33,675 nucleotides of DNA from Desulfobacteraceae bacterium (GTDB lineage: Bacteria > Desulfobacterota > Desulfobacteria > Desulfobacterales > ETH-SRB1): NCBI GenBank assembly GCA_014237365.1, contig JABZFQ010000023.1, positions 1-33,675 on the forward strand, read 5' to 3'. The notes beneath the pieces were generated by a model. It was not told the origin of the DNA. It ran no database searches and saw only the letters and a list, made by a program, of their open reading frames with translations. Positions 9,071 to 22,475 of the stretch are shown one piece after another. A program made the translations under genes and the position numbers. Position 1 is the first letter of the stretch; every line of letters begins with the position of its first letter.

Positions 9071-9087
9071 TTGGCATGAACCTTGCT
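9071..9087 (+). promoter_or_regulatory. Sigma-54 (-24/-12) promoter of the CBS-DASS transporter operon
   Basis: TTGGCATGAACCTTGCT matches the RpoN consensus (TGGCAC-N5-TTGCW) with correct GG-GC spacing. The GG is 114 bp downstream of the start of the activator palindrome at 8959. A near-copy is at 12549-12565. A 104-bp leader follows before the CBS gene. Confidence 0.75.
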
Positions 9088-9190: not shown

Positions 9191-9715
9191 ATGTCAAACG
9201 CAAAAAAGGTCAAAGAAATCATGGTTAAATTGACCGATTATCCCCACATTCCGTATTGGATGAATATTAGGGATGCTATTGCCATGATTCATAGTGTCTA
9301 TGATGAAAAATCAGGTCTTGGCGAGAACCGGATGGTTCTGGTGTTCGATGAAAGTTACCAGCTTCTTGGCATCTTAAGGCTCAAAAACCTGCTCGCAGGC
9401 ATTGAACCAAAATTTCTCAGAAAGGACGATAAATCAAAATATCAGGGGCTGGCCCATGATGATTATGCAAGTCTTTCAGCCCTTGTTGAAGGGACATTTT
9501 CCGAGAATTGCAAAAAAGAAGCAAAAAAGCCTGTAAGTGAGGTAATGACACCCATTAAGGCTACGGTTGATGTAAATGATTCTGTTGTAAAGGCCGCTTT
9601 TATAATGCTCCAGACAAACTATAACCTTATTCCCGTGATGGACGGTAAAAAGGTAACAGGGGTTTTACGCATGAGCGATGTTTTTAATGAACTTACTAAA
9701 ATTGTAATAGAATAG
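9191..9715 (+). CDS. CBS-pair (Bateman) protein, partner of the DASS transporter
   Basis: 174 residues, soluble. Two CBS units are visible. The first spans about residues 15-75 (ending ESYQLLGILRLKNLL). The second spans about 115-170 (PVSEVMTPIKATVDVNDS, then VTGVLRMSDVF). CBS pairs usually bind AMP, ADP, ATP or S-adenosylmethionine and control a partner protein. AAAGGAGG lies at good spacing before the ATG. It is 11 bp upstream of the transporter gene, so it is probably the transporter's nucleotide-sensing regulator (inference). It is paralogous to the proteins at 12578 and 13137; it shares LTDYPHIPYW with the latter (LTDYPHMPYW). Confidence 0.85.
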   Translation: MSNAKKVKEIMVKLTDYPHIPYWMNIRDAIAMIHSVYDEKSGLGENRMVLVFDESYQLLGILRLKNLLAGIEPKFLRKDDKSKYQGLAHDDYASLSALVEGTFSENCKKEAKKPVSEVMTPIKATVDVNDSVVKAAFIMLQTNYNLIPVMDGKKVTGVLRMSDVFNELTKIVIE

Positions 9716-9726
9716 GGAGGTGAACT

Positions 9727-11256
9727 ATGGCTGAGAAAGAAAAACCAATTGCAAAAGGTGAAGGCCTCCCGGAGATGCCGGATGAGATTATGCTTTCTCC
9801 CGAGAAGCCTCCATTAGACTGGAAGCGTCTGCTTTTTATGGGAATAGGAATTGTTCTGTTTCTAATTATATATTATTCTTCGCAATGGCCGGATGCTGTT
9901 GATCCAGAGGGAAAGCATTTTATCTTATCAAACGCGGGCAAGGGAGCTTTGGCTGTTTTTGCGCTGGCAGGCACCTGGTGGGTATTTGAAGTCGTGCCGA
10001 TCGGTGTAACCAGTATTATGATAGGGGTGTTGCAGGCCCTGTTTCAGGTCAGATCCGCTAAAGTGGCTTTTAAGGATTTCATGGATCCATCGGTTATGTT
10101 TATTTTTGGCTCAATAGTTATCGGCATGGTCTTTACCAAGACGGGGCTGACCAAGCGTCTGGCATACAAGATGCTGGCTATTGTAGGAGAAAAGACCAGC
10201 ATGATCTATCTCGGCTGTTTTGTGACAACAGCGGCCCTGACCCACATCATGGCCCACACCGCAGTAGCTGCTACCATATTTCCTTTGCTTATGGCTATCT
10301 ATGCCCTGTATGGAGAAGGCGACAAGCAGACCAAGTTCGGCAAGGGCCTTTTTATTGGTATGGCCTATATAGCAGGTGCGGGCAGTATCGTAACCCTTTT
10401 GGGCGCTGCACGCGGGGCCGTGGCAATCGGGTTTTTCAATGATATAATGAATCAGGATATAAGTTTTTTTCAGCTCACGTATTACATGTTTATCCCGGGC
10501 TGGATAATGGTCTTTGCCTTGTGGGGATTTTTCATGATCTTTTTTAAACCAGAGAAAAAAACCATTCCCGGACTTCGTGAAAAGGCAAAACAACTCAATG
10601 CCCAATTGGGTAAAATCACTAAAGATGAGATTATTGCCATACTCATTGTTCTTGCGGTGATAATTTTTCTGGCTCTGCGGTCCTTTATACCTGAGTTAAA
10701 AATATTTCATAAGACCGCGATTGTTTTGCTTTCGACTGTAGTATTCTTCCTTGTAAAAATTCTGGATGTCAAGGATCTCGAAGAAATACCCTGGAATATT
10801 ATACTGCTTTTTGCCGGAGCCATGAGCATTGGTTTTTGCCTCTGGGAAACAGGCGCTGCCGAATGGATGGCAGTAAACTGGCTGGTGATGTTTCAGGAGT
10901 CATCCGGGTTTGTATTTATCATGAGTATAGCCTTTTTTGTCATGATTATGACTAACTTTATCATGAACGTAGCTGCCATTGCCATCTCGCTGCCGGTGGC
11001 TCTGGTTATTGCCCCATATCTTGGCGTGGCCGGAGAGGTGATACTTTTTGCATCACTGATCGTGGCCGGAATGCCTTTCCTCTTGCTGGTGGGTGCGGCT
11101 CCTAATGCAATAGCTTATGAGTCAAAGCAGTTTACCACAGGTGAGTTCTTCCTGTATGGCATTCCAGCCAGCATTATGCTGATGGCAATTGTGGCTCTGT
11201 GCGTGGGAGTGATCTGGCCGATTCTGGGGATGCCGATTAGTATACCGACACCATAG
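9727..11256 (+). CDS. DASS/SLC13-family anion:sodium symporter
   Basis: 509 residues. A soluble N-terminus of about 32 residues is followed by many hydrophobic segments starting near 33. Family marks include the late NFIMNVAAIAISLPVALV and GAAPNAIAYESKQFTTGEFF, close to the usual 'PNA...(Y/S)' signature of divalent anion:Na+ symporters. The first helical-hairpin SNT motif is replaced by MAHTAVAATIFP near 176-187. Likely substrates are sulfate or a dicarboxylate; in sulfate reducers DASS proteins are candidate sulfate importers. Specificity cannot be read from sequence. It is cotranscribed with the CBS protein from a sigma-54 promoter and ends at a hairpin terminator. Confidence 0.87.
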   Translation: MAEKEKPIAKGEGLPEMPDEIMLSPEKPPLDWKRLLFMGIGIVLFLIIYYSSQWPDAVDPEGKHFILSNAGKGALAVFALAGTWWVFEVVPIGVTSIMIGVLQALFQVRSAKVAFKDFMDPSVMFIFGSIVIGMVFTKTGLTKRLAYKMLAIVGEKTSMIYLGCFVTTAALTHIMAHTAVAATIFPLLMAIYALYGEGDKQTKFGKGLFIGMAYIAGAGSIVTLLGAARGAVAIGFFNDIMNQDISFFQLTYYMFIPGWIMVFALWGFFMIFFKPEKKTIPGLREKAKQLNAQLGKITKDEIIAILIVLAVIIFLALRSFIPELKIFHKTAIVLLSTVVFFLVKILDVKDLEEIPWNIILLFAGAMSIGFCLWETGAAEWMAVNWLVMFQESSGFVFIMSIAFFVMIMTNFIMNVAAIAISLPVALVIAPYLGVAGEVILFASLIVAGMPFLLLVGAAPNAIAYESKQFTTGEFFLYGIPASIMLMAIVALCVGVIWPILGMPISIPTP

Positions 11257-11300: not shown

Positions 11301-11336
11301 CTAGGGGAGAGTCATGCTCTCCCCTTAGACTTTTTT
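11301..11336. terminator. Bidirectional hairpin terminator between transporter and activator genes
   Basis: GGGGAGAG (11304-11311), 5-base loop, CTCTCCCC (11317-11324), then a T-run at 11331-11336 on the plus strand. It serves the transporter operon and also lies directly beyond the minus-strand activator stop (11325-11327). Confidence 0.8.
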
Positions 11337-12332
11337 AAGAGGCTTTCGACGTCGTTCAAATTTTATGTTATATTTTTGAATTTTGTGCCTTAAAGTTCTG
11401 GGGCTTATATTCAGTATTTTTGCTGTTTTTTCTCTGTCGCCAGCCAGGCGGTGCAATGCATCCAAAATGGCCTTTTTTTCAGCCTCACTTCTGATTTCCT
11501 CAAGGTTTTTTATACGAAGGGGATCTTTAAAATGCCATAAAAAGTCAGAGGGAAGATGTTCTAAACTTATCGTATCGTCATCATTAATAATAAATACTCT
11601 TTCAATGAGATTTTTCAATTCCCTTACATTACCTGGCCAGTCATAACGGCATAAGAGTTCAATAACTTCCGGTTCAACCGCTGGCTTTGGTTTTTTAAAA
11701 TTAACTACCGATTGATTCAGAAAGTGGTTCACCATTTTGGGGATAACGTTTTTCCTTTTTCTTAATGGGGGTATAAATATTGGAACTACATGGAGCCTAT
11801 AAAATAAGTCTTCTCGAAATAATTTCTTTTTGACTTCATTTTGCAGGTCTTTATTAGTTGCCGATATGATACGGATATTCACTTTAATTAGCTCATTTCC
11901 CCCAATTCGGAGGAATTGAGAATCTTCTAAAACACGTAAAAAATCAACCTGATTTTCAAGTGGAAGTTCAGAGACCTCGTCAAGAAAAAGAGTCCCTTTG
12001 TCAGCCATCTCAAAGCAGCCTTTTTCTTGACGAATAGCGCCGGTAAAGGCTCCTTTTTCATGGCCAAATAGTTTGTCTTCAAACATAAGGCCTGAGAGGA
12101 TTCCGGAGTTTACAGGGACAAATGGATTTTCAGATCTAGGGCTTTGCAAATGAATAATCTTGGCAAGCAGTTCCTTGCCCGTACCGCTTTCTCCTGTAAT
12201 CATGACACTTACATCGTGTTTGGCTACTTTATTTACGATCTTCAATATGGAGTGCATTGCTTCAGAGCCAAGTATGAACTCCTGCATGATTGATTTCCGG
12301 ATGTGCTTTATAAAGGGAGATTGCAGTTTCAT
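11325..12332 (-). CDS. Sigma-54-dependent activator (AAA+ and Fis-type HTH, no sensor domain)
   Basis: Enhancer-binding protein that remodels RNA polymerase-sigma-54. Numbered from the ATG at 12332 (335 residues), it shows Walker A GESGTGKE (47-54), the sigma-54 contact loop GAFTGA (94-99), Walker B GTLFLDE (113-119), and a C-terminal Fis-like helix-turn-helix (DREKTAKILNISPRTLRHKI). Only about 20 residues precede the AAA+ domain, so there is no receiver, GAF or PAS domain; the layout is like PspF. The frame could extend to a TTG at 12398, adding 22 residues that resemble no domain, and an ATG at 12287 is also possible. It lies between the two operons it probably controls and is divergent from the second. 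Control is probably by a partner protein or by its own level (inference). Confidence 0.92.
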   Translation of the reverse strand: MKLQSPFIKHIRKSIMQEFILGSEAMHSILKIVNKVAKHDVSVMITGESGTGKELLAKIIHLQSPRSENPFVPVNSGILSGLMFEDKLFGHEKGAFTGAIRQEKGCFEMADKGTLFLDEVSELPLENQVDFLRVLEDSQFLRIGGNELIKVNIRIISATNKDLQNEVKKKLFREDLFYRLHVVPIFIPPLRKRKNVIPKMVNHFLNQSVVNFKKPKPAVEPEVIELLCRYDWPGNVRELKNLIERVFIINDDDTISLEHLPSDFLWHFKDPLRIKNLEEIRSEAEKKAILDALHRLAGDREKTAKILNISPRTLRHKIQKYNIKFERRRKPLKKV

Positions 12333-12416
12333 AAGCCTATGTTGCTTTTCATATTCTATACAACCGAATATTTTAACCTGAATTACTATGGATGTCAAAC
12401 AGATTCAGAGTTGAAA

Positions 12417-12455: not shown

Positions 12456-12548
12456 TTTATGCATAAAAATGCCGTTTATAAGTGGTTACTATAAAATAAA
12501 TTCAAAGATATCGTATGGTTATAACGAGATGAGTTGAATCTTTGACAG

Positions 12549-12565
12549 TTGGTATAAACCTTGCT
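12549..12565 (+). promoter_or_regulatory. Sigma-54 promoter of the CBS/PEP-synthase-like/kinase operon
   Basis: TTGGTATAAACCTTGCT differs from the promoter at 9071 at only two of 17 positions. Its GG lies 113 bp after the activator palindrome, against 114 bp for the first operon. It lies within the open frame that extends upstream of the CBS gene, which argues that this upstream extension is not translated. Confidence 0.7.
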
Positions 12566-12577
12566 CTAAGTTATTGT

Positions 12578-13066
12578 ATGTATTCGGAAAAAACAGTTAA
12601 AAACTATATGCGTTCTTTGGATCAATATTGTTATATTGATGAGGACGAAAATATACAAAAAGCCCTTGTTGCCATGAATAATATAAGGAAAGAGGGCAAA
12701 GACCAATGTCTTGTTGTGTTGGGGGCAGGTCCCCTTGAAATGGAGATAATAAAAGGCTTTGTGACTCCTTCTGAACTTGTCTTTGGATTATTATCTCACT
12801 TTTTAAAAGGGGTGCAAAGAAGTGGCCCCATCTTTTGGGAAGGACAGCTTGAAACAGAATGCCTTGAAGGTGTGAATAAGCGTGTAGGGGAAATAATGCT
12901 TTCGATTAAGGCTTATGTCAGAGAAAACGAAATGCTTATGGAGGCTGTTTTTTTGCTAAACAAATACAAGATGGATTTCCTGCCGGTAGTGAGAAATGAT
13001 GAAGTGGTTGGCATAATTCATCTTGATGATATTTTAAAAGAGATTTGTGGTATTATATTGAAATAA
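12578..13066 (+). CDS. CBS-pair protein 2
   Basis: 162 residues from the ATG at 12578. From there the N-terminus aligns without a gap to the paralogue at 9191 (M-x5-VK-x2-M in both). The second CBS unit is clear (KMDFLPVVRNDEVVGIIHLD); the first is more divergent (DENIQKALVAM...QCLVVLGAG). The sigma-54 promoter predicts transcription starting near 12576, which would make this ATG almost leaderless. The ATG at 12608 is then the alternative start. First gene of the second operon, 70 bp before the next CBS gene. Probable role: nucleotide-dependent regulation of a partner protein (inference). Confidence 0.8.
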   Translation: MYSEKTVKNYMRSLDQYCYIDEDENIQKALVAMNNIRKEGKDQCLVVLGAGPLEMEIIKGFVTPSELVFGLLSHFLKGVQRSGPIFWEGQLETECLEGVNKRVGEIMLSIKAYVRENEMLMEAVFLLNKYKMDFLPVVRNDEVVGIIHLDDILKEICGIILK

Positions 13067-13136
13067 ATGTTAAAAACATATTGATAATAATGTTAATATG
13101 GCATATCCTTCCCAAAACTTTTGCAAAAAAGGTTTA

Positions 13137-13613
13137 ATGATGACAATAATAAAGAAATTATTAATTCCTCTTACAGATTATCCTCATATGCCTTACTGGG
13201 CAACCCTGGAAGAGGCGATTGTCCTGTTAAATTTTGCCCATGAATCGGGCTATCATACTGTTTTAGTATTTGATGAGTTTTATAAATTACTTGGAATGCT
13301 GGACGGCCGGGAAATACTCAGGGTGATCAATCCAAAATTCAAAAAACTTTCTCCTGATAAAGTTTCTTCAAAATGGAATGATATTATAAATTCTGCAAAC
13401 GATAATCAATTTAAAAAGCCCATAAAAGATTTTATTTCCCCTTTTAACATGATGGTTGAGTCCACTGATCATATCCTGAAAGTAGCCTATCTATTACTTC
13501 AGCATAATCTTGATATAATACCGGTTAAAGAAGCAGGAAAAGTGTTAGGAGTCGTGCGAATGCATGATATATTCCATAAGATAACCGGGTCTATTCTTCA
13601 GTCTGAAAAGTAG
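13137..13613 (+). CDS. CBS-pair protein 3
   Basis: 158 residues from the ATG at 13137 (the ATG at 13140 is equally possible; AAAAAAGG lies just upstream). The frame extends to an ATG at 13098, but that start has no ribosome-binding site and adds residues not shared with paralogues. It is close to the 9191 protein: LTDYPHMPYW near the start, VFDEFYKLLGMLDGREIL in CBS 1, NLDIIPVKEAGKVLGVVRMHDIF in CBS 2. It lies 22 bp before the PEP-synthase-like gene. Confidence 0.83.
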   Translation: MMTIIKKLLIPLTDYPHMPYWATLEEAIVLLNFAHESGYHTVLVFDEFYKLLGMLDGREILRVINPKFKKLSPDKVSSKWNDIINSANDNQFKKPIKDFISPFNMMVESTDHILKVAYLLLQHNLDIIPVKEAGKVLGVVRMHDIFHKITGSILQSEK

Positions 13614-13635: not shown

Positions 13636-16182
13636 ATGCGTCGTTTATTAAACATATTCAGAAGAAAGGTCGCTGCTCCCCAGCCTGTCTCGGATGATGG
13701 ACAGATGTTCAAAGAAAGGTATTCTTACTTTAAAAAACTTCTCTCTGAAAACAACGCTGTTTTAGAGATCATGGCAGATATGGAGGAAAAGCTTTCAGGT
13801 GAATATATATTTGATATGAATTATGTCAGGACCAGTTGCAATAAACTGGTAGACAGTGTTCAGAATATTATTGTGAATCTTGATAAGCTCTCAAAAGGCA
13901 AATATCCTGTACTTTATTTTGCATTTGCAAGGATTAATTCAAAAATTGAGGCAACCCTTATTAACAAGATAGAGATTCCGGTAACAGATTTTGCCATACC
14001 CTTTGAATCAGTGACAAAGGAGATGGTTAACAGTGTTGGTGGTAAAAATGCAAATTTAGGTGAGATCAAAAACAGAGTTGGTTTGCCTGTTCCTGATGGC
14101 TTTTGCATAAGCGCTTATGCTTTTAAAAAATTTATTGAATATAATAAGTTAAAAAACAAAATTATTTTAAATTCAACTGATATGGGTGATATAGAGGGAT
14201 TAAATAAAATCAGCAAAGAAGCTCATAACCTGATTATGGAATCTCAAATTCCTCCTGATATTGAGACCGGTATATTAAATGCTTTCTCAGAACTCTTCAG
14301 GAAAGCATCATCCAAAGTCAGCGAACCAACAGCCTCGGTTAGAAGTTCCGCTATATATGAAGATGCCGAGTTTACCTTTGCGGGTCAGTATAAAACCGCA
14401 CTCAATGTTACCTCAGATAAACTTATAGAACAGTATAAAAAAGTTATTGCAAGTCTGTTTACCTCCAGAGCTATGTTTTACTACAAGACTAAAGGCTTTG
14501 AAGAAGATGATATGGTTATGGCAGTCGGTGTGGTTGAAATGATTGATGCCAGGGCAAGCGGGATTATGTATTCTCGTGATCCAAACAATGCTGAAAATGA
14601 CAGCATTATCATTAATGCTGTCTGGGGTCTGGGCAAGTATGCGGTTGACGGGACGGTAAGTCCAAATATATATGTAGTTTCCAGAGATAAACCAGGGACA
14701 ATTTTGGAAAAAACTACGCCCGCACAGGAGGTTATGCTCAAATGTGATTCCAGGGATGGTGCGGTTGAAGTTGAGGTTCCGGAAGAAAAAAGAGCAACTT
14801 CGTGTTTAACCGATGATCAAATAAAGTTTCTTGCCGATTATGCCCTGGTGCTTGAAAAACATTATGATAGACCTCAGGATATAGAGTGGGCTCTTGATGA
14901 GAATAATAATTTTTTTATTTTACAGACCAGGCCCCTCAACATTTTAAAAGAACAACCTGCCAAAAATATTCAGACAATTACAAAAGGTCATAAAATCCTG
15001 ATAAATAAGGGACAGGTTGCATGCAAAGGCGTTGGTGCGGGAAAGGTTTTTTTTGTTAATAGAGAAGAAGATCTTGAAAAGTTTCCTGAAGGGGCTGTTC
15101 TTGTGGCCAAACACACTTCGACCGGGTTTGTCACTGTCATGAACAAAACCAGCGCAATTATTGCTGATGTCGGAAGCCCTACCGGTCATATGGCAACACT
15201 GGCCAGAGAGTATAAAATTCCTACTTTGCTTAATACTGTCATAGCCATGAAGACACTGGAAGCTGATAAGGAGATAACTGTTGATGCTATTAACGGGAAC
15301 ATTTATGAAGGACGCATAGATGAACTTGTTGAAGCGGGAAAAATGGATAACCCTTTCAAGGATACTGCGGTTTTCAGGGTCCTGCGCGAGCTGTTAAATA
15401 ATATAGCTCCTTTAAACTTAATTCATCCTGAAAGTGAAAAGTTTAGCCAGGAGTATTGTGAAACTTTTCATGATATAACACGATTCGCCCATGAAGTATC
15501 AATGAAGGAGATGTTTAAAATAGTTGACAGCCCTGATATAAGTAAGCGGGAGGCTGTAAAACTTGAGGTTAAAATTCCACTTGAAATCTATATTATAGAC
15601 TTGGGTGGCGGCATCAAAAGTGATTCAAAAAAAATAACGCCGGAACATATTCTTTCCATACCAATGAATGCCCTGCTAAAAGGTATGATGGCCATAGAAT
15701 GGCCCGGCCCGCCACCGATAAATGTAAAGGGGTTTATGAGCGTTATTGCCAGTACTGCCATGCAGCCTCACTCTGAAAAGTTATTATGGGAACCCAGTTT
15801 TGCTATAATTTCCGGGGAATACATGAACTTTAACATCAGGCTTGGCTATCATATCCAGACTATTGAGGCATATGCCGGCGATAATATAAATGATAACTAT
15901 GCCCGATTTTTATTTAGAGGCGGCGGCGCTTCTGTTGACAGACGAACCAGAAGAACCAGGCTTATTAAACAAATTTTAGAAATGATGGATTTCAATGTAA
16001 AAAGGACCGGAGACGTCCTTGATGCAAGTATTACCAAGTATGATAAATCAACTGTTTTGAAAAAACTTGGTATACTGGCTCATATGACAGCATACACAAA
16101 ACAATTAGACATGACTCTTTTTAATGATGCCATGGTTGACTGGTATTTTAAAGAGTTTATCAAGAAACATTATGTTAAGTAA
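13636..16182 (+). CDS. PEP-synthase-like phosphotransferase lacking the PEP/pyruvate barrel
   Basis: 848 residues. An N-terminal helical region (1-130) is followed by the ATP-grasp nucleotide-binding domain of PEP synthase/PPDK: VNSVGGKNANLGEI near 132-145, ASVRSSAIYEDAEFTFAGQY near 235-254, and QDIEWALDENNNFFILQTRP near 415-434. The swivelling phosphohistidine domain has SPTGHMATLAREYKIPT with the likely acceptor His518. After about residue 580 the TIM barrel with its catalytic cysteine, which binds PEP or pyruvate in true PEP synthase, is absent. About 270 residues of unrecognised sequence replace it (RFLFRGGGASVDRRTRRTRL near 755-775). It can plausibly autophosphorylate on histidine from ATP, but the acceptor is unknown, so the name ppsA should not be used. 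It is cotranscribed with two CBS genes and two kinases. AGAGG precedes the ATG. Confidence 0.85.
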   Translation: MRRLLNIFRRKVAAPQPVSDDGQMFKERYSYFKKLLSENNAVLEIMADMEEKLSGEYIFDMNYVRTSCNKLVDSVQNIIVNLDKLSKGKYPVLYFAFARINSKIEATLINKIEIPVTDFAIPFESVTKEMVNSVGGKNANLGEIKNRVGLPVPDGFCISAYAFKKFIEYNKLKNKIILNSTDMGDIEGLNKISKEAHNLIMESQIPPDIETGILNAFSELFRKASSKVSEPTASVRSSAIYEDAEFTFAGQYKTALNVTSDKLIEQYKKVIASLFTSRAMFYYKTKGFEEDDMVMAVGVVEMIDARASGIMYSRDPNNAENDSIIINAVWGLGKYAVDGTVSPNIYVVSRDKPGTILEKTTPAQEVMLKCDSRDGAVEVEVPEEKRATSCLTDDQIKFLADYALVLEKHYDRPQDIEWALDENNNFFILQTRPLNILKEQPAKNIQTITKGHKILINKGQVACKGVGAGKVFFVNREEDLEKFPEGAVLVAKHTSTGFVTVMNKTSAIIADVGSPTGHMATLAREYKIPTLLNTVIAMKTLEADKEITVDAINGNIYEGRIDELVEAGKMDNPFKDTAVFRVLRELLNNIAPLNLIHPESEKFSQEYCETFHDITRFAHEVSMKEMFKIVDSPDISKREAVKLEVKIPLEIYIIDLGGGIKSDSKKITPEHILSIPMNALLKGMMAIEWPGPPPINVKGFMSVIASTAMQPHSEKLLWEPSFAIISGEYMNFNIRLGYHIQTIEAYAGDNINDNYARFLFRGGGASVDRRTRRTRLIKQILEMMDFNVKRTGDVLDASITKYDKSTVLKKLGILAHMTAYTKQLDMTLFNDAMVDWYFKEFIKKHYVK

Positions 16183-17567: not shown

Positions 17568-19802
17568 GTGTTGAAAACAAAAAGATATTATAAAGTAAAA
17601 TACTTTAATACAAGAAGAGCTATAGGCATTTTAGGCGCTCTCATCATTGTGCTTCTTATGGTAGCTGTATATTATGGACTGACCAGCGCCAGGCATATGA
17701 AAGAGATTATTTGTGAGGATTTTAATCAGCAGCAACTGGTATTAGCCAGGTATGCTGCCGCCAGCATGGAACATAGCCTGGATTATATTCAGCGTGAGCT
17801 GTCACTTTTAAACCTTTCTCCTTCAATTCAATATCTTGAAAATGTTTCATGGGCACGGCGGACCAATATAACTTTATCTGCTGTTAAGCATGAAGGAGTA
17901 TTTGAAATAAAACTCATACCTCAAAGTGGAAAGACAGCGCATATTGTCGATAATAGAGGGGCATCCCTTGTTATTCAAGGTGATTTTACAAATACGGATT
18001 ATTTTAAATGGGCACTCAGGAAAGAAAATAAAAATAGAATTTATTGGTCTGAAATCAAGAGAACGAGTCCCCAGCATCCTGACAAACTTGTCATGTATTT
18101 GGCTACTCCTACTTATGAAGAATCAGTTGACGAGGCGCATCCAGTAGCTACAGGATGTCTTGCCGGAGTACTTATATTTAGTCTTGACATAACTTATTTG
18201 GTTAAAAAGGCTACTCAAGACATAATAATGGGTAAAACAGGATATGCATGGGTTATAGATAAAAACGGCAAGTTCATCCATCATCCACAAAGAGACTTTA
18301 TCGGAGAGGATGCATTTAAAATTCGTGGGATGAAAAAGCCCAAAATATCTTTTGCCAAAATTAATATGATTCAAAAAGAAAGAATGCTTAAAGGCAAGGA
18401 AGGCACAGGTCAGTATAGCTCCGGATGGCACCGTGGAATAGAAATTGAAATGGAAAAATTAATTGCATACGCGCCTGTTTATCATCACGGTGAGTGGTCC
18501 TGGTCTGTAGCTGTAGTATCACCAATGAGCGATGTTGAGGGTGTTATTCATTCAGTATATATACGCCAGTTTTATATCCAGGGAACTATAGTCCTGGCCA
18601 TTATTCTGGGCTGCATGTTTGTGATCGGCTTTGAGAGACGTTGGACCTATGCCCTGGAAGAAGAGGTAAGGGAAAAAACAAAAAGCCTGGCGAAGTTTTT
18701 AGAAAAGCTTAAAAAATCGGAAGAGAAATACAAGACTCTTGTCGAAAGCGCGCAGGACTTGATATTTACGGTTGATGAAAACGGAAAGCTTCTATCTATG
18801 AATAAGTGCTCGGCAATTTTTTTTAAGGACACCCCGGATAATTTAACAGGAAAAAATATATATGATCTTTTTACTGAAGAGAGTGCAAAATTAGAGATGG
18901 GTTTTATTGAACAGGTGTTCAAAACCGGAAAAAATATAAATGTTAAACATCCTGTTAAAGTTGATAATCTCGATTATTGGTTTTCCAGCAACTTTGTTCC
19001 CCTTATGGATGAATCCGGGAGAGTTTATGCCTCTCTGGGTATTTCAAGGGATATTACAGAACGTAAAAAACTGGAGGAAGAACAGATATATAATACAGAG
19101 AAATTGGCTTCACTTGGAAAACAGACTGCCGGTGTTGTCCATGAACTCAATCAGCCCATAGCGATAATTTTAGGTTTTGCAGATATTCTTTTGGAAAAAA
19201 TAGAGCCCGGCAAGAATCATGAGATTCTTGAAACAATAGAAAGACAGGCTCAAAATTGCAAAAAAATTGTAGAGAACGTTCTAGGCTTTGCCAGACATCC
19301 GGATAAAATCGAATATTCATCAAATGTAAACGAAAGCCTTGCAAGAGTGCTTTCCGTGGTTGAGAATATTCTGGTTACAGAAAAGATAACTTTAGAAAAG
19401 AATATCGCTAAAGATCTGCCTGCTGTTAGAGGAGATTCAGGCCATCTGCAACAGGTTTTCATGAATTTGATCACCAATGCTGCTGCTGCTATGAGAGGGG
19501 GAGGTGTTTTAACTGTTTCTACCAGATTAAATTCCTCCGGCAATAAGGTGGAAATTATTTTTAAAGATACAGGACACGGTATTAAAAAAGAATACAGAGA
19601 CAAAATACTTGATGCCTTTTTTACAACAAAAAAGAGAGGGGATGGCACCGGCCTGGGGCTTTCGGTCAGTTATGGCATTGTAACCAGGTATGGTGGAGAC
19701 ATAAAGTTTGAAACAGTGTCTGAAGAAGAGGACAGGGAGAAAAAGGGCACGGCTTTTATAGTAACCTTTCCGGTTGTCTCCTCAAAGGAACAGGCTATTT
19801 AA
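17568..19802 (+). CDS. Membrane histidine kinase with periplasmic Cache-type sensor and PAS
   Basis: 744 residues from a GTG with TGAGGA 5 bp upstream. TM1 lies near residues 16-36 and TM2 near 336-355. The ~300-residue periplasmic region between them has a dCache character (ARYAAASMEHSLDYIQ; later GKTGYAWVIDKNGKFIHHP). A cytoplasmic PAS domain spans about 385-495 (DLIFTVDENGKLLSMN). HisKA has VVHELNQP with His525, and the HATPase_c domain has NLITNAAAAM, DTGHGI and DGTGLGL. dCache domains bind small ligands such as carboxylates or amino acids. From residue ~505 to the end the protein is closely similar to the preceding kinase, which implies duplication. It lies 39 bp after that gene. Confidence 0.92.
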   Translation: MLKTKRYYKVKYFNTRRAIGILGALIIVLLMVAVYYGLTSARHMKEIICEDFNQQQLVLARYAAASMEHSLDYIQRELSLLNLSPSIQYLENVSWARRTNITLSAVKHEGVFEIKLIPQSGKTAHIVDNRGASLVIQGDFTNTDYFKWALRKENKNRIYWSEIKRTSPQHPDKLVMYLATPTYEESVDEAHPVATGCLAGVLIFSLDITYLVKKATQDIIMGKTGYAWVIDKNGKFIHHPQRDFIGEDAFKIRGMKKPKISFAKINMIQKERMLKGKEGTGQYSSGWHRGIEIEMEKLIAYAPVYHHGEWSWSVAVVSPMSDVEGVIHSVYIRQFYIQGTIVLAIILGCMFVIGFERRWTYALEEEVREKTKSLAKFLEKLKKSEEKYKTLVESAQDLIFTVDENGKLLSMNKCSAIFFKDTPDNLTGKNIYDLFTEESAKLEMGFIEQVFKTGKNINVKHPVKVDNLDYWFSSNFVPLMDESGRVYASLGISRDITERKKLEEEQIYNTEKLASLGKQTAGVVHELNQPIAIILGFADILLEKIEPGKNHEILETIERQAQNCKKIVENVLGFARHPDKIEYSSNVNESLARVLSVVENILVTEKITLEKNIAKDLPAVRGDSGHLQQVFMNLITNAAAAMRGGGVLTVSTRLNSSGNKVEIIFKDTGHGIKKEYRDKILDAFFTTKKRGDGTGLGLSVSYGIVTRYGGDIKFETVSEEEDREKKGTAFIVTFPVVSSKEQAI

Positions 19803-19876
19803 TAGTATAGGAATTTCCATTAATCTGATAAGCTTAACAGCTCGCCCGAAGGGTGCTAATTCAAAAAGGAGGTATG

Positions 19877-20284
19877 ATGGGTGCAAATATTTTAGTTGTG
19901 GATGATGAGCTGGATATGCTTGCTCTTCTTGCCATGATTATTTCAGAAAAGACAGAACACAAAGTAACGACTACCAATAATCCTTTGGAGGTAGTTCAAT
20001 TTGTAAAAGAAAGAGAATATGATCTAATTATAAGTGACTTAAAAATGCCAGGTATGGATGGCTTAGAACTTATTGTTGAGATAAGAAAGATAGATCAATA
20101 TATCCCTATATTAGTTATTACGGCTTATGGTTCTAATGAGTCCGCGGAAAATGCAATAAACAAAGGAGCCTATGATTATATTACAAAACCATTTCGTAAA
20201 GAACAGATATTAATTGCAATTGATAGAGCCCTGGAATGGAAGAATATGAGAAAGGAAATTAGAGAGCTAAAGGAGAAGAAGTAA
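19877..20284 (+). CDS. Receiver-only response regulator (CheY-like)
   Basis: 135 residues, consisting of one REC domain with VVDDE at the start, the phospho-acceptor aspartate in IISDLKMPGMDG, the T/S switch in ITAYGS and the conserved lysine in YITKPF. There is no DNA-binding output domain. AAAGGAGG lies directly upstream; spacing favours the ATG at 19877 over 19874, and the open frame back to 19853 is not needed. It is the last gene of the operon, after two kinases, so it is probably their shared phospho-acceptor. It could signal by protein contact, for example to the transporter, the PEP-synthase-like protein or the activator (inference). Confidence 0.9.
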   Translation: MGANILVVDDELDMLALLAMIISEKTEHKVTTTNNPLEVVQFVKEREYDLIISDLKMPGMDGLELIVEIRKIDQYIPILVITAYGSNESAENAINKGAYDYITKPFRKEQILIAIDRALEWKNMRKEIRELKEKK

Positions 20285-20499: not shown

Positions 20500-21186
20500 T
20501 TAATGCTCCAGCCTCAGTCCCCATCCTTCAAACATGAAAAGAATGGAAAAACCATACCACAGCGTGTAACCCACATAGAAGACCAGAGAAAATATAACAA
20601 TCCCTATCTTATCACCAATGTTTTGGGGCTCGATTTTATAGTAGTTATAGGAAGTTTCAACAACCTTCTTTATAACCGATGCAACTACTTTGGCTTCTTT
20701 GAACAACTTCTGCTTTTTTAGATCCTTATCTGCTGCCTTTAAAGCCTTGTGCCAGTTATAAAGAACCTGCCTCTCATTATAACCATATTTGTTTGAGACC
20801 GTTGTTCCGTCATTATTATACATGTTGTCTGAATCTTTCAGACAATTTGCAAGCATATTGCCAAGATCGCCGGATACATTAAGCTGAGCACCTGATACTT
20901 CTGCTGTTGCTTCGGCCTCCGTAAACAGAGCTGCTGTCTGTTGTGCCTGGTTTTCGTCCGCCATTTTTAGAGTCATGTTTACATTATTTCCTACAAACGT
21001 GTCTGTTTCTTCCTTTACCTTGGGGATATAATAGGCCGAGCCTTTTGATATGGAGTTATACAGATCATCCAGATATTCCATGCCGTTCTGGCCATTAAAA
21101 ACAGGTGAAAATATTATAAAAAGAACAACAAAAAACCCTACAAATAATGCAAAACCACCGTAAAATTCCTTTTTATTGGCAATCAT
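20500..21186 (-). CDS. Two-TM protein of unknown function, downstream of TauE/SafE
   Basis: 228 residues; family not recognised. A hydrophobic segment near residues 9-29 and another near 193-218 enclose about 160 polar residues, probably extracytoplasmic. GAGGAGG lies 9 bp before the ATG. The gene starts 2 bp after the permease stop, so translation is probably coupled. The central part has a run of small residues (ATAEVSGAQLNVSGDLGNML) and no cysteine pair or catalytic motif that I can name. The tight coupling suggests an accessory subunit of the TauE-type permease (inference). Confidence 0.8.
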   Translation of the reverse strand: MIANKKEFYGGFALFVGFFVVLFIIFSPVFNGQNGMEYLDDLYNSISKGSAYYIPKVKEETDTFVGNNVNMTLKMADENQAQQTAALFTEAEATAEVSGAQLNVSGDLGNMLANCLKDSDNMYNNDGTTVSNKYGYNERQVLYNWHKALKAADKDLKKQKLFKEAKVVASVIKKVVETSYNYYKIEPQNIGDKIGIVIFSLVFYVGYTLWYGFSILFMFEGWGLRLEH

Positions 21187-21188
21187 GA

Positions 21189-22475
21189 TTACACCTCCTC
21201 TCCCTTAAGTTTTGGAATGTTGGTCAGAAACGTTCCAATTACCCAGACAGAAAACGCTCCTATGACAATGAAAAATGCCCACACACCTATGCTTTCAAGA
21301 AAGCCGGCGGTTCCCGGATCAATTTTAATGACATCCATTGCTCCCAGCTTAGCCGGCAAAGCAAAGATACGATTAACAAAACCAGCCAAAACTGCCATTG
21401 CATAAAAGCCGCGGATTGTGATGCCCGGAACAACTTTGGTAACCAATGCACCGATCTGAATACCCAGCAGTGATCCAAGGAGCATGCCCATGGCAAGCGT
21501 ATAGAAGATAAAGCCGTAAATAGCATACTGGCTTATTGAGGCATAACCTGCTGTAAAAACAATCTGGAAAATATCGGTTCCAACCGTTGTCATAGAGGAA
21601 ACACCTAAGACATAAACAAATATGGGGAAAGTCAGAAAGCCGCCGCCAACGCCCATAATTCCTGCTGCAAGTCCGACAAGCGCACCGCTAGCTACTAAAA
21701 ATACCCATGAGATACTCCGCCCCCCCGGCACAAGGTCAAAATCAAATTTAACCAAAGGAGGTATTTTAAGAGCCTGGAGTTTTTGAGGAAGACCGCCCAT
21801 GTCGGCTCCTTCGCTTTTTCCGCCATGTGCACCCTCATCTGCTGCACTAGGGGCCTTTCTGGCCTTAAGAAAGTCTAACAAAGAATAAATACCCAGAAAA
21901 CCCAGCATAAGTGAATAAACAGTTGTGATAAAGGCATCGCTCAAAACCGGGTTGATCTCGTAAAGCACGCGGTTAAGTACTCCGCCGGCAGTTGCGCCTA
22001 CGATAGCGCCTATCAGAAAGACTATGGCTAAAGGTACTGAAACATTTCCTAATTTTCTGTGAATTACGCTTCCCATTATTGCTTTGGCAAAGATGTGAAA
22101 GAGGTCGGTACCAACGGCCAGGATACCCTTGATTCCTGCGCTCATCAGGGCTGGAGCGATGATAAAACCGCCACCAGCACCAATACAGCCGGTAATCAGG
22201 CCGGCGCCCATACCGATAAGAATTGATACTATAAAAATACCTGTACTGTAAAAGGCAGGGCTGTATGCTTTTTTGCCTCCAAGCAGTTCGGGAAGAGCGC
22301 TGCCCACCTGATCAGCAAATGCAATAGTTCCCAATATAACAGGGATGGTAAGCAAACCCAGTATAATAAGCCGCTTTCTGTCGCCAAGTATTGTATTGGA
22401 AACATTAAGCTCCCATTTTGCATGGGCTCTAGCGCCCATCATCATAAAACTGCCCAAATGTTTAAAGAAACTCAT
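21189..22475 (-). CDS. TauE/SafE-family permease
   Basis: 428 residues with about eight or nine membrane segments. The duplicated family motif is visible: GCIGAGGGFIIAPALMSAGI near 100-120 and GIMGVGGGFLTFPIFVYVLG near 270-290, each followed by VGTDLFHI or VGTDIFQI. The N-terminus has an added cytoplasmic stretch (about 35 residues) before TM1. A central soluble loop is rich in Gly/Ala/Lys. AAAGGAG lies 9 bp before the ATG. The family moves sulfite, sulfonates or other organosulfur or organic anions; direction and substrate are not readable here. In a sulfate reducer a role with sulfur anions is plausible. Confidence 0.9.
   Translation of the reverse strand: MSFFKHLGSFMMMGARAHAKWELNVSNTILGDRKRLIILGLLTIPVILGTIAFADQVGSALPELLGGKKAYSPAFYSTGIFIVSILIGMGAGLITGCIGAGGGFIIAPALMSAGIKGILAVGTDLFHIFAKAIMGSVIHRKLGNVSVPLAIVFLIGAIVGATAGGVLNRVLYEINPVLSDAFITTVYSLMLGFLGIYSLLDFLKARKAPSAADEGAHGGKSEGADMGGLPQKLQALKIPPLVKFDFDLVPGGRSISWVFLVASGALVGLAAGIMGVGGGFLTFPIFVYVLGVSSMTTVGTDIFQIVFTAGYASISQYAIYGFIFYTLAMGMLLGSLLGIQIGALVTKVVPGITIRGFYAMAVLAGFVNRIFALPAKLGAMDVIKIDPGTAGFLESIGVWAFFIVIGAFSVWVIGTFLTNIPKLKGEEV

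Follow-up and report, generated by a model that had tools for sequence, protein, structure and literature searches.

PEP-synthase-like dikinases without the PEP/pyruvate barrel: a family with an unrecognised C-terminal domain, often encoded near predicted sulfur-anion transporters and nearly confined to dsrA-bearing genomes

The window, that is, the whole 33,675-nucleotide stretch of a Desulfobacteraceae genome that was analysed, contains an open reading frame with exact coordinates for an 848-residue dikinase-like protein, here called PEPL. The gene lies within a cluster whose features, with positions in the window, are as follows.

9072 to 9086, plus strand: sigma-54-like -24/-12 promoter, TGGCATGAACCTTGC, 5' of the CBS-DASS operon
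9191 to 9715, plus strand: CBS-domain protein with a DYPHIPYW motif
9727 to 11256, plus strand: transporter of the DASS / Na+:sulfate symporter family
11325 to 12398, minus strand: sigma-54 activator without a receiver domain
12550 to 12564, plus strand: sigma-54-like promoter, TGGTATAAACCTTGC, 5' of the CBS-CBS-PEPL genes
12542 to 13066, plus strand: CBS-domain protein, probably starting at 12578 or further downstream
13098 to 13613, plus strand: CBS-domain protein with a DYPHMPYW motif, 22 bp 5' of PEPL
13636 to 16182, plus strand: PEPL, PEP-synthase-like dikinase without the PEP/pyruvate barrel, 848 aa
16401 to 17528, plus strand: PAS histidine kinase
17568 to 19802, plus strand: dCache-PAS histidine kinase
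19853 to 20284, plus strand: stand-alone receiver of 143 aa, without an output domain
20500 to 21186, minus strand: 228-aa protein of no recognised family, paired with the TSUP gene
21189 to 22475, minus strand: anion transporter of the TauE/SafE (TSUP) family, convergent to the PEPL cluster

The substrates of the DASS and TSUP transporters are predicted at the level of the family. The two promoter-like sites, TGGCATGAACCTTGC and TGGTATAAACCTTGC, are nearly identical and flank the divergent sigma-54 activator gene, and similar sites lie upstream of a CBS gene at four related loci (L036, L037, L093 and L099). A loose sigma-54 pattern occurs 21 times in the window against 27 expected, so that there is no excess, and the informative part of these sites is their position and not their number. 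The CBS proteins of this cluster and of related loci share the motif (D/E)(Y/F)PH(I/M)PYW, which 37 aligned CBS proteins retain together with its His; the motif may possibly be a ligand site or a phospho-acceptor. The 228-aa protein has hydrophobic ends, recurs beside TauE/SafE transporters at 13 loci and matched no Pfam or NCBIfam model. At two loci of one genome group (L139, 4632 to 7661; L143, 12047 to 14830), the gene immediately 5' of the dikinase gene encodes a sigma-54 activator of very large size that matches a dCache sensor weakly; these activators look like membrane-bound transcription factors.

PEPL itself is composed of the following parts.

13636 to 13986, plus strand: N-terminal extension, residues 1-117
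14029 to 14982, plus strand: ATP-grasp domain PPDK_N (Pfam), residues 132-449
15082 to 15297, plus strand: mobile phosphohistidine domain, PEP-utilizers (Pfam), residues 483-554
15187 to 15189, plus strand: CAT codon of the catalytic His518, placed by alignment
15352 to 16179, plus strand: C-terminal domain in place of the PEP/pyruvate barrel, residues 573-848, predicted alpha+beta
15469 to 15495, plus strand: motif HDITRFAHE, residues 612-620, found by alignment, on a single predicted helix
15919 to 15954, plus strand: motif GGGASVDRRTRR, residues 762-773, Gly loop and Arg pairs at the predicted start of a helix

The Pfam search identified PPDK_N (E 6e-98) and the phosphohistidine domain (E 9e-17), and no further match was found in PEPL even at E 10. 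The matches to NCBIfam PEP synthase models, of which NF005057 scores best on the dikinase part with 390 bits, all end at residue 572. With the same library, the PEP synthase encoded elsewhere in the genome (L003, 1529 to 3988) yielded all three domains, including PEP-utilizers_C at E 1.9e-61; given this positive control, the barrel is absent from PEPL. Among 117 relatives, the search for PEP-utilizers_C returned nothing above noise. The preliminary description had recognised the ATP-binding and His518 domains, the missing barrel and about 270 unfamiliar residues in its place, and our analyses bear out all three points. It had overlooked the N-terminal extension, which is conserved in the family and gave no match in Pfam.

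The machinery for transfer from ATP to the His is conserved across the family. In 78 full-length relatives, K137, R236, E242, E417 and Q430 never vary, and 77 of them keep H518; in the alignment to solved PEP synthases, K137, R236, E417, Q430 and H518 fall on catalytic positions. This conservation argues strongly that the ATP-to-His half-reaction is used by the family, and PEPL probably autophosphorylates on His518. One member (L056, 8258 to 10825) has a Tyr at the site of the catalytic His with the other domains intact, and is possibly a pseudoenzyme.

The C-terminal domain is as well conserved as the catalytic ones. The mean identity to PEPL is 45.7% for this domain, 44.4% for the ATP domain and 50.4% for the His domain, and its dN/dS against the closest orthologue (L039) is 0.17, within the range of 0.14-0.25 across all parts of the protein. 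Residues 573-848 are therefore a real domain under purifying selection. In the alignment of 117 sequences, eleven columns are invariant (L593, H612, D613, G683, G737, H739, F760, G762, G763, R773 and D825), while C608, R616, H619, E620, D655, N731, R735, N754, Y755, R769 and R772 are nearly so. The HDITRFAHE motif thus has two invariant residues, H612 and D613, and three near-invariant ones, R616, H619 and E620. The Arg-rich stretch singled out in the preliminary description, GGGASVDRRTRRTR, is real: it spans residues 762-775, and G762, G763, R769, R772 and R773 are conserved in at least 90% of the family. In the structure model, the Gly-rich loop and Arg pairs of GGGASVDRRTRR form a candidate oxyanion or phosphate site. 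Taken together, H612, D613, R616, H619, H739, N754, the loop and the Arg pairs would suit the binding of an oxyanion or of a phosphorylated partner.

Structure prediction of this region and a fold search, which the preliminary description had proposed, gave neither a (beta-alpha)8 barrel nor a clear match in the PDB. The AlphaFold model, built from 117 sequences and numbered from residue 563, has a mean pLDDT of 86.5 and a pTM of 0.74. Helices are predicted at 16-28, 49-69, 205-221, 242-260 and 269-284, and strands at 78-81, 89-93, 159-163, 167-174, 177-184, 193-199, 225-229 and 232-238. The order is thus two helices, six strands, the helix at 205-221, two strands and two helices, and according to this model the domain is alpha+beta and not a (beta-alpha)8 barrel. 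The profile of the domain found only noise among PDB sequences, and its members match no Pfam family above noise. The best Foldseek hit of the predicted domain in the PDB (E 0.006, TM 0.12) is at noise level, and the best VIA match (1txn, Z 6.4, rmsd 4.2 over 143) lies within noise. Coproporphyrinogen oxidase, red chlorophyll catabolite reductase, arginine kinase/McsB and the C-Ala domain of AlaRS recurred as weak fold hits; as these do not rise above noise, we did not draw on them. The domain matches no recognised family, and its absence from family listings is not evidence for a new fold.

The comparison with known systems places PEPL in a group of its own. PEP synthase and PPDK, like PEPL, have an ATP-grasp domain followed by a central phosphohistidine domain with intact catalytic residues; they end in a TIM barrel, whereas PEPL has an unrelated domain of about 270 residues and the additional 117 residues at its N-terminus. 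Enzyme I of the PTS receives its phosphate from PEP, has a C-terminal barrel and hands the phosphate on to proteins from a phosphohistidine domain. PEPL has the phosphohistidine domain in common with it, together with an ATP-grasp domain and no barrel. In rifampin phosphotransferase (RPH), a dikinase with an exchanged acceptor and a small-molecule substrate (PMC4844700), and in the HpeHI / phenylphosphate synthase dikinases, which also combine an exchanged acceptor domain with small-molecule substrates (PMC12167813), the dikinase modules are shared with PEPL, and no match was found between PEPL and their acceptor domains. The analogy with RPH drawn in the preliminary description is apt insofar as RPH is a dikinase with an exchanged acceptor. 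It fails in the domain order, which is ATP, substrate, His in RPH, while the His domain of PEPL (483-554) is central and precedes the extra domain; the 216 bits of PEPL against the RPH model NF041857, with a cut-off of 999, come from the shared modules.

VadK (Rv1127c), a mycobacterial PPDK descendant that has lost the barrel, is a regulatory histidine kinase which autophosphorylates on His and modulates enzymes encoded nearby (PMC13400623). It resembles PEPL in its PPDK origin, in the lost barrel with the ATP-grasp and His domains kept, and in the position of its gene next to the target pathway. Unlike PEPL, it stops after the His domain, where PEPL continues with 276 conserved residues, and it lacks the sulfur-anion transporter context of the PEPL family. 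VadK is a closer functional precedent than RPH. Since PEPL lacks the barrel of PEP synthase, departs from RPH in the order of its domains and carries a C-terminal domain that VadK does not have, the PEPL family is a group of undescribed barrel-less dikinases outside the PEP synthase, RPH and VadK groups; our literature search found no description of it.

The preliminary description had seen a single odd enzyme; PEPL instead belongs to a large, multi-copy family. When residues 579-848 were used as the query against 395 genomes of the same phylum, the C-terminal domain architecture was found in 146, often in 3-6 copies and up to six or more, and the matches listed have frames of about 850-900 residues in nearly all cases. 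Across the genome collection, at least 546 relatives were confirmed by a scan, the best 80 of which come chiefly from Desulfobacterota and Nitrospirota (for example, Thermodesulfovibrio); a search for viral relatives returned none. A decayed or misassembled copy is present in the same genome as PEPL (L005, 1212 to 1815, contig C264), in which hardly anything separates the N-terminal extension from the final ~105 residues of the C-terminal domain. A 1502-aa frame (L111) was considered as a fusion and rejected, as only PPDK_N and PEP-utilizers matched and the leading ~650 residues seem to be a spurious overrun of high GC content.

Strong dsrA matches (E < 1e-100) occur in about 139 of the 146 PEPL-bearing genomes and in about 51 of the other 249, by counts read by eye from two tables; the odds ratio is 77 and the Fisher p is 4e-53, a significance inflated by shared ancestry. 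Of the seven PEPL-bearing genomes without a strong match, five have a completeness of 62-80%. The family is thus nearly confined to dsrA-bearing genomes, and almost restricted to bacteria that reduce sulfate.

The gene neighbourhoods point to transport and signalling. Among 79 loci ranked by homology, the window included, histidine kinases are found at 47, receivers at 42, CBS proteins at 29, DASS at 25 and TSUP at 18. To lessen the bias of this ranking, we also drew 40 windows from across the phylum search, of which 39 gave a detection with the family profile, and set them against 40 controls taken from the same genomes. Near PEPL, DASS or TSUP genes lie in 21/39 windows and in none of the 40 controls (p 8e-9), and receivers in 22/39 against 4/40 (p 1e-5), p-values that are optimistic as the windows and genomes are mutually related. 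Sigma-54 activators were found in 16/39 against 3/40 and kinases in 23/39 against 12/40. The link to a transport system suggested in the preliminary description is statistically real. CBS proteins were considered as general partners and rejected, since their 29/79 among the homology-ranked loci is not accompanied by enrichment in the broader sample (5/39 against 4/40). Nearly all receivers near PEPL have 122-165 aa, which leaves no space for an output domain and favours non-transcriptional signalling.

When DASS and TSUP labels were placed on a FastTree phylogeny built from 128 family members, 18 changes over three groups were required, compared with a mean of 26.8 after shuffling, and none of 200 shuffles was as low. 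The labels are clustered and yet change many times, suggesting a recurrent functional association rather than a single inherited arrangement. One clade of 16 members has neither DASS nor TSUP within 6 kb, and thus transport is not the sole context of PEPL; a search for shared neighbours in this clade found none.

DASS-kinase-CBS clusters for sulfate uptake were described in Desulfobacteraceae in 2025 in connection with uptake control (PMC11887813), and a review deals with the sulfate transporters found in sulfate reducers (PMC5840216). As far as its main text goes, the cluster of the former study resembles that of PEPL in its DASS transporter, cache-type histidine kinases and CBS proteins; that text names two-component and CBS proteins without mentioning a dikinase, and reports WalR-type regulators, while the receivers of the PEPL cluster are stand-alone.

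Based on these observations, we propose that PEPL is a dikinase which phosphorylates His518 with ATP and, by way of a new acceptor or sensor domain, regulates sulfur-anion transport, a reading to which we assign a probability of about 0.55. The ATP-grasp domain, as its intact residues suggest, would phosphorylate His518 from ATP and, like PEP synthase, release AMP and probably Pi. The swivelling His domain would then carry the phosphoryl group to the C-terminal domain rather than to a pyruvate barrel; in the C-terminal domain, the predicted site comprises H612, D613, R616, H619 and E620 on one helix, plus the Gly-rich loop and Arg pairs. Regulation is the most likely output, either through the state of His518 or through transfer from it to a CBS protein, a stand-alone receiver or the transporter. 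In this way, DASS (sulfate) or TSUP (sulfite/sulfur-anion) transport may be tuned to cellular ATP/AMP. Autophosphorylation, the identity of the acceptor and the direction of control are what we infer, and a role in transport control seems likelier than a small-molecule product. In sulfate reducers, sulfate activation consumes ATP and forms AMP and PPi. Because this step itself converts ATP to AMP and PPi, the reversible reaction of PEPL could, hypothetically, report the flux of sulfate activation.

Another possibility, which we consider unlikely, would be that PEPL is a small-molecule dikinase of the RPH or HpeHI/phenylphosphate synthase type, phosphorylating a metabolite, perhaps a sulfur compound, from His518. 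The known dikinases with exchanged acceptors do act on small molecules (PMC4844700, PMC12167813), and the invariant His/Asp/Arg set resembles an active site. However, the neighbours are sensors, receivers, activators and transporters and not metabolic enzymes, and the multiplicity of the gene, with as many as six or more copies in a genome, fits signalling better than one reaction.

Less probable still is that PEPL senses energy or sulfate activation, the equilibrium His + ATP <-> His-P + AMP + Pi reporting ATP/AMP and the C-terminal domain relaying this state by binding only. CBS domains are classic adenine-nucleotide sensors. Their presence next to PEPL in the window cluster, the ATP consumption and AMP and PPi formation in sulfate activation, and the one member without His518 (L056) would fit such a sensor, but invariant residues within a domain of their own point to something beyond passive binding. 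Sequence cannot tell this reading from the main dikinase proposal.

It is very improbable that PEPL is a genuine PEP synthase whose barrel has diverged. Its dikinase part is indeed nearest to PEP synthase (NF005057), yet PEP-utilizers_C was unmatched at E 10 in PEPL and at noise in the 117 relatives, the predicted order of strands and helices is not that of a (beta-alpha)8 barrel, and a complete PpsA is encoded elsewhere in the genome; the HMM search with its positive control and the structure model rule such a barrel out. A decaying PEP synthase relic with a tail of noise, in favour of which stands the one decayed copy in the same genome, is hardly credible in view of the low dN/dS in all parts, the invariant catalytic residues and the hundreds of relatives.

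Returning to the regulatory dikinase that we favour, a broader generalisation can be offered tentatively, as a possibility that we hold to be rather doubtful: that sulfate reducers employ a dedicated class of repeatedly duplicated phosphohistidine enzymes, driven by ATP and equipped with a new acceptor fold, for coupling sulfate and sulfite transport post-translationally to the ATP/AMP ratio set by sulfate activation. If true, this would be a relay for transport control analogous to the PTS and to classical two-component systems, yet separate from both. PEPL adds an acceptor domain without recognised relatives to the dikinase superfamily, of which RPH, HpeHI and VadK are earlier rewirings, and labelling members of the PEPL family 'PEP synthase' or 'PEP/pyruvate-binding protein' would mislead metabolic models. 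Sulfate entry is the costly first step of respiration in sulfate reducers, and the PEPL family would offer a direct handle on its control.
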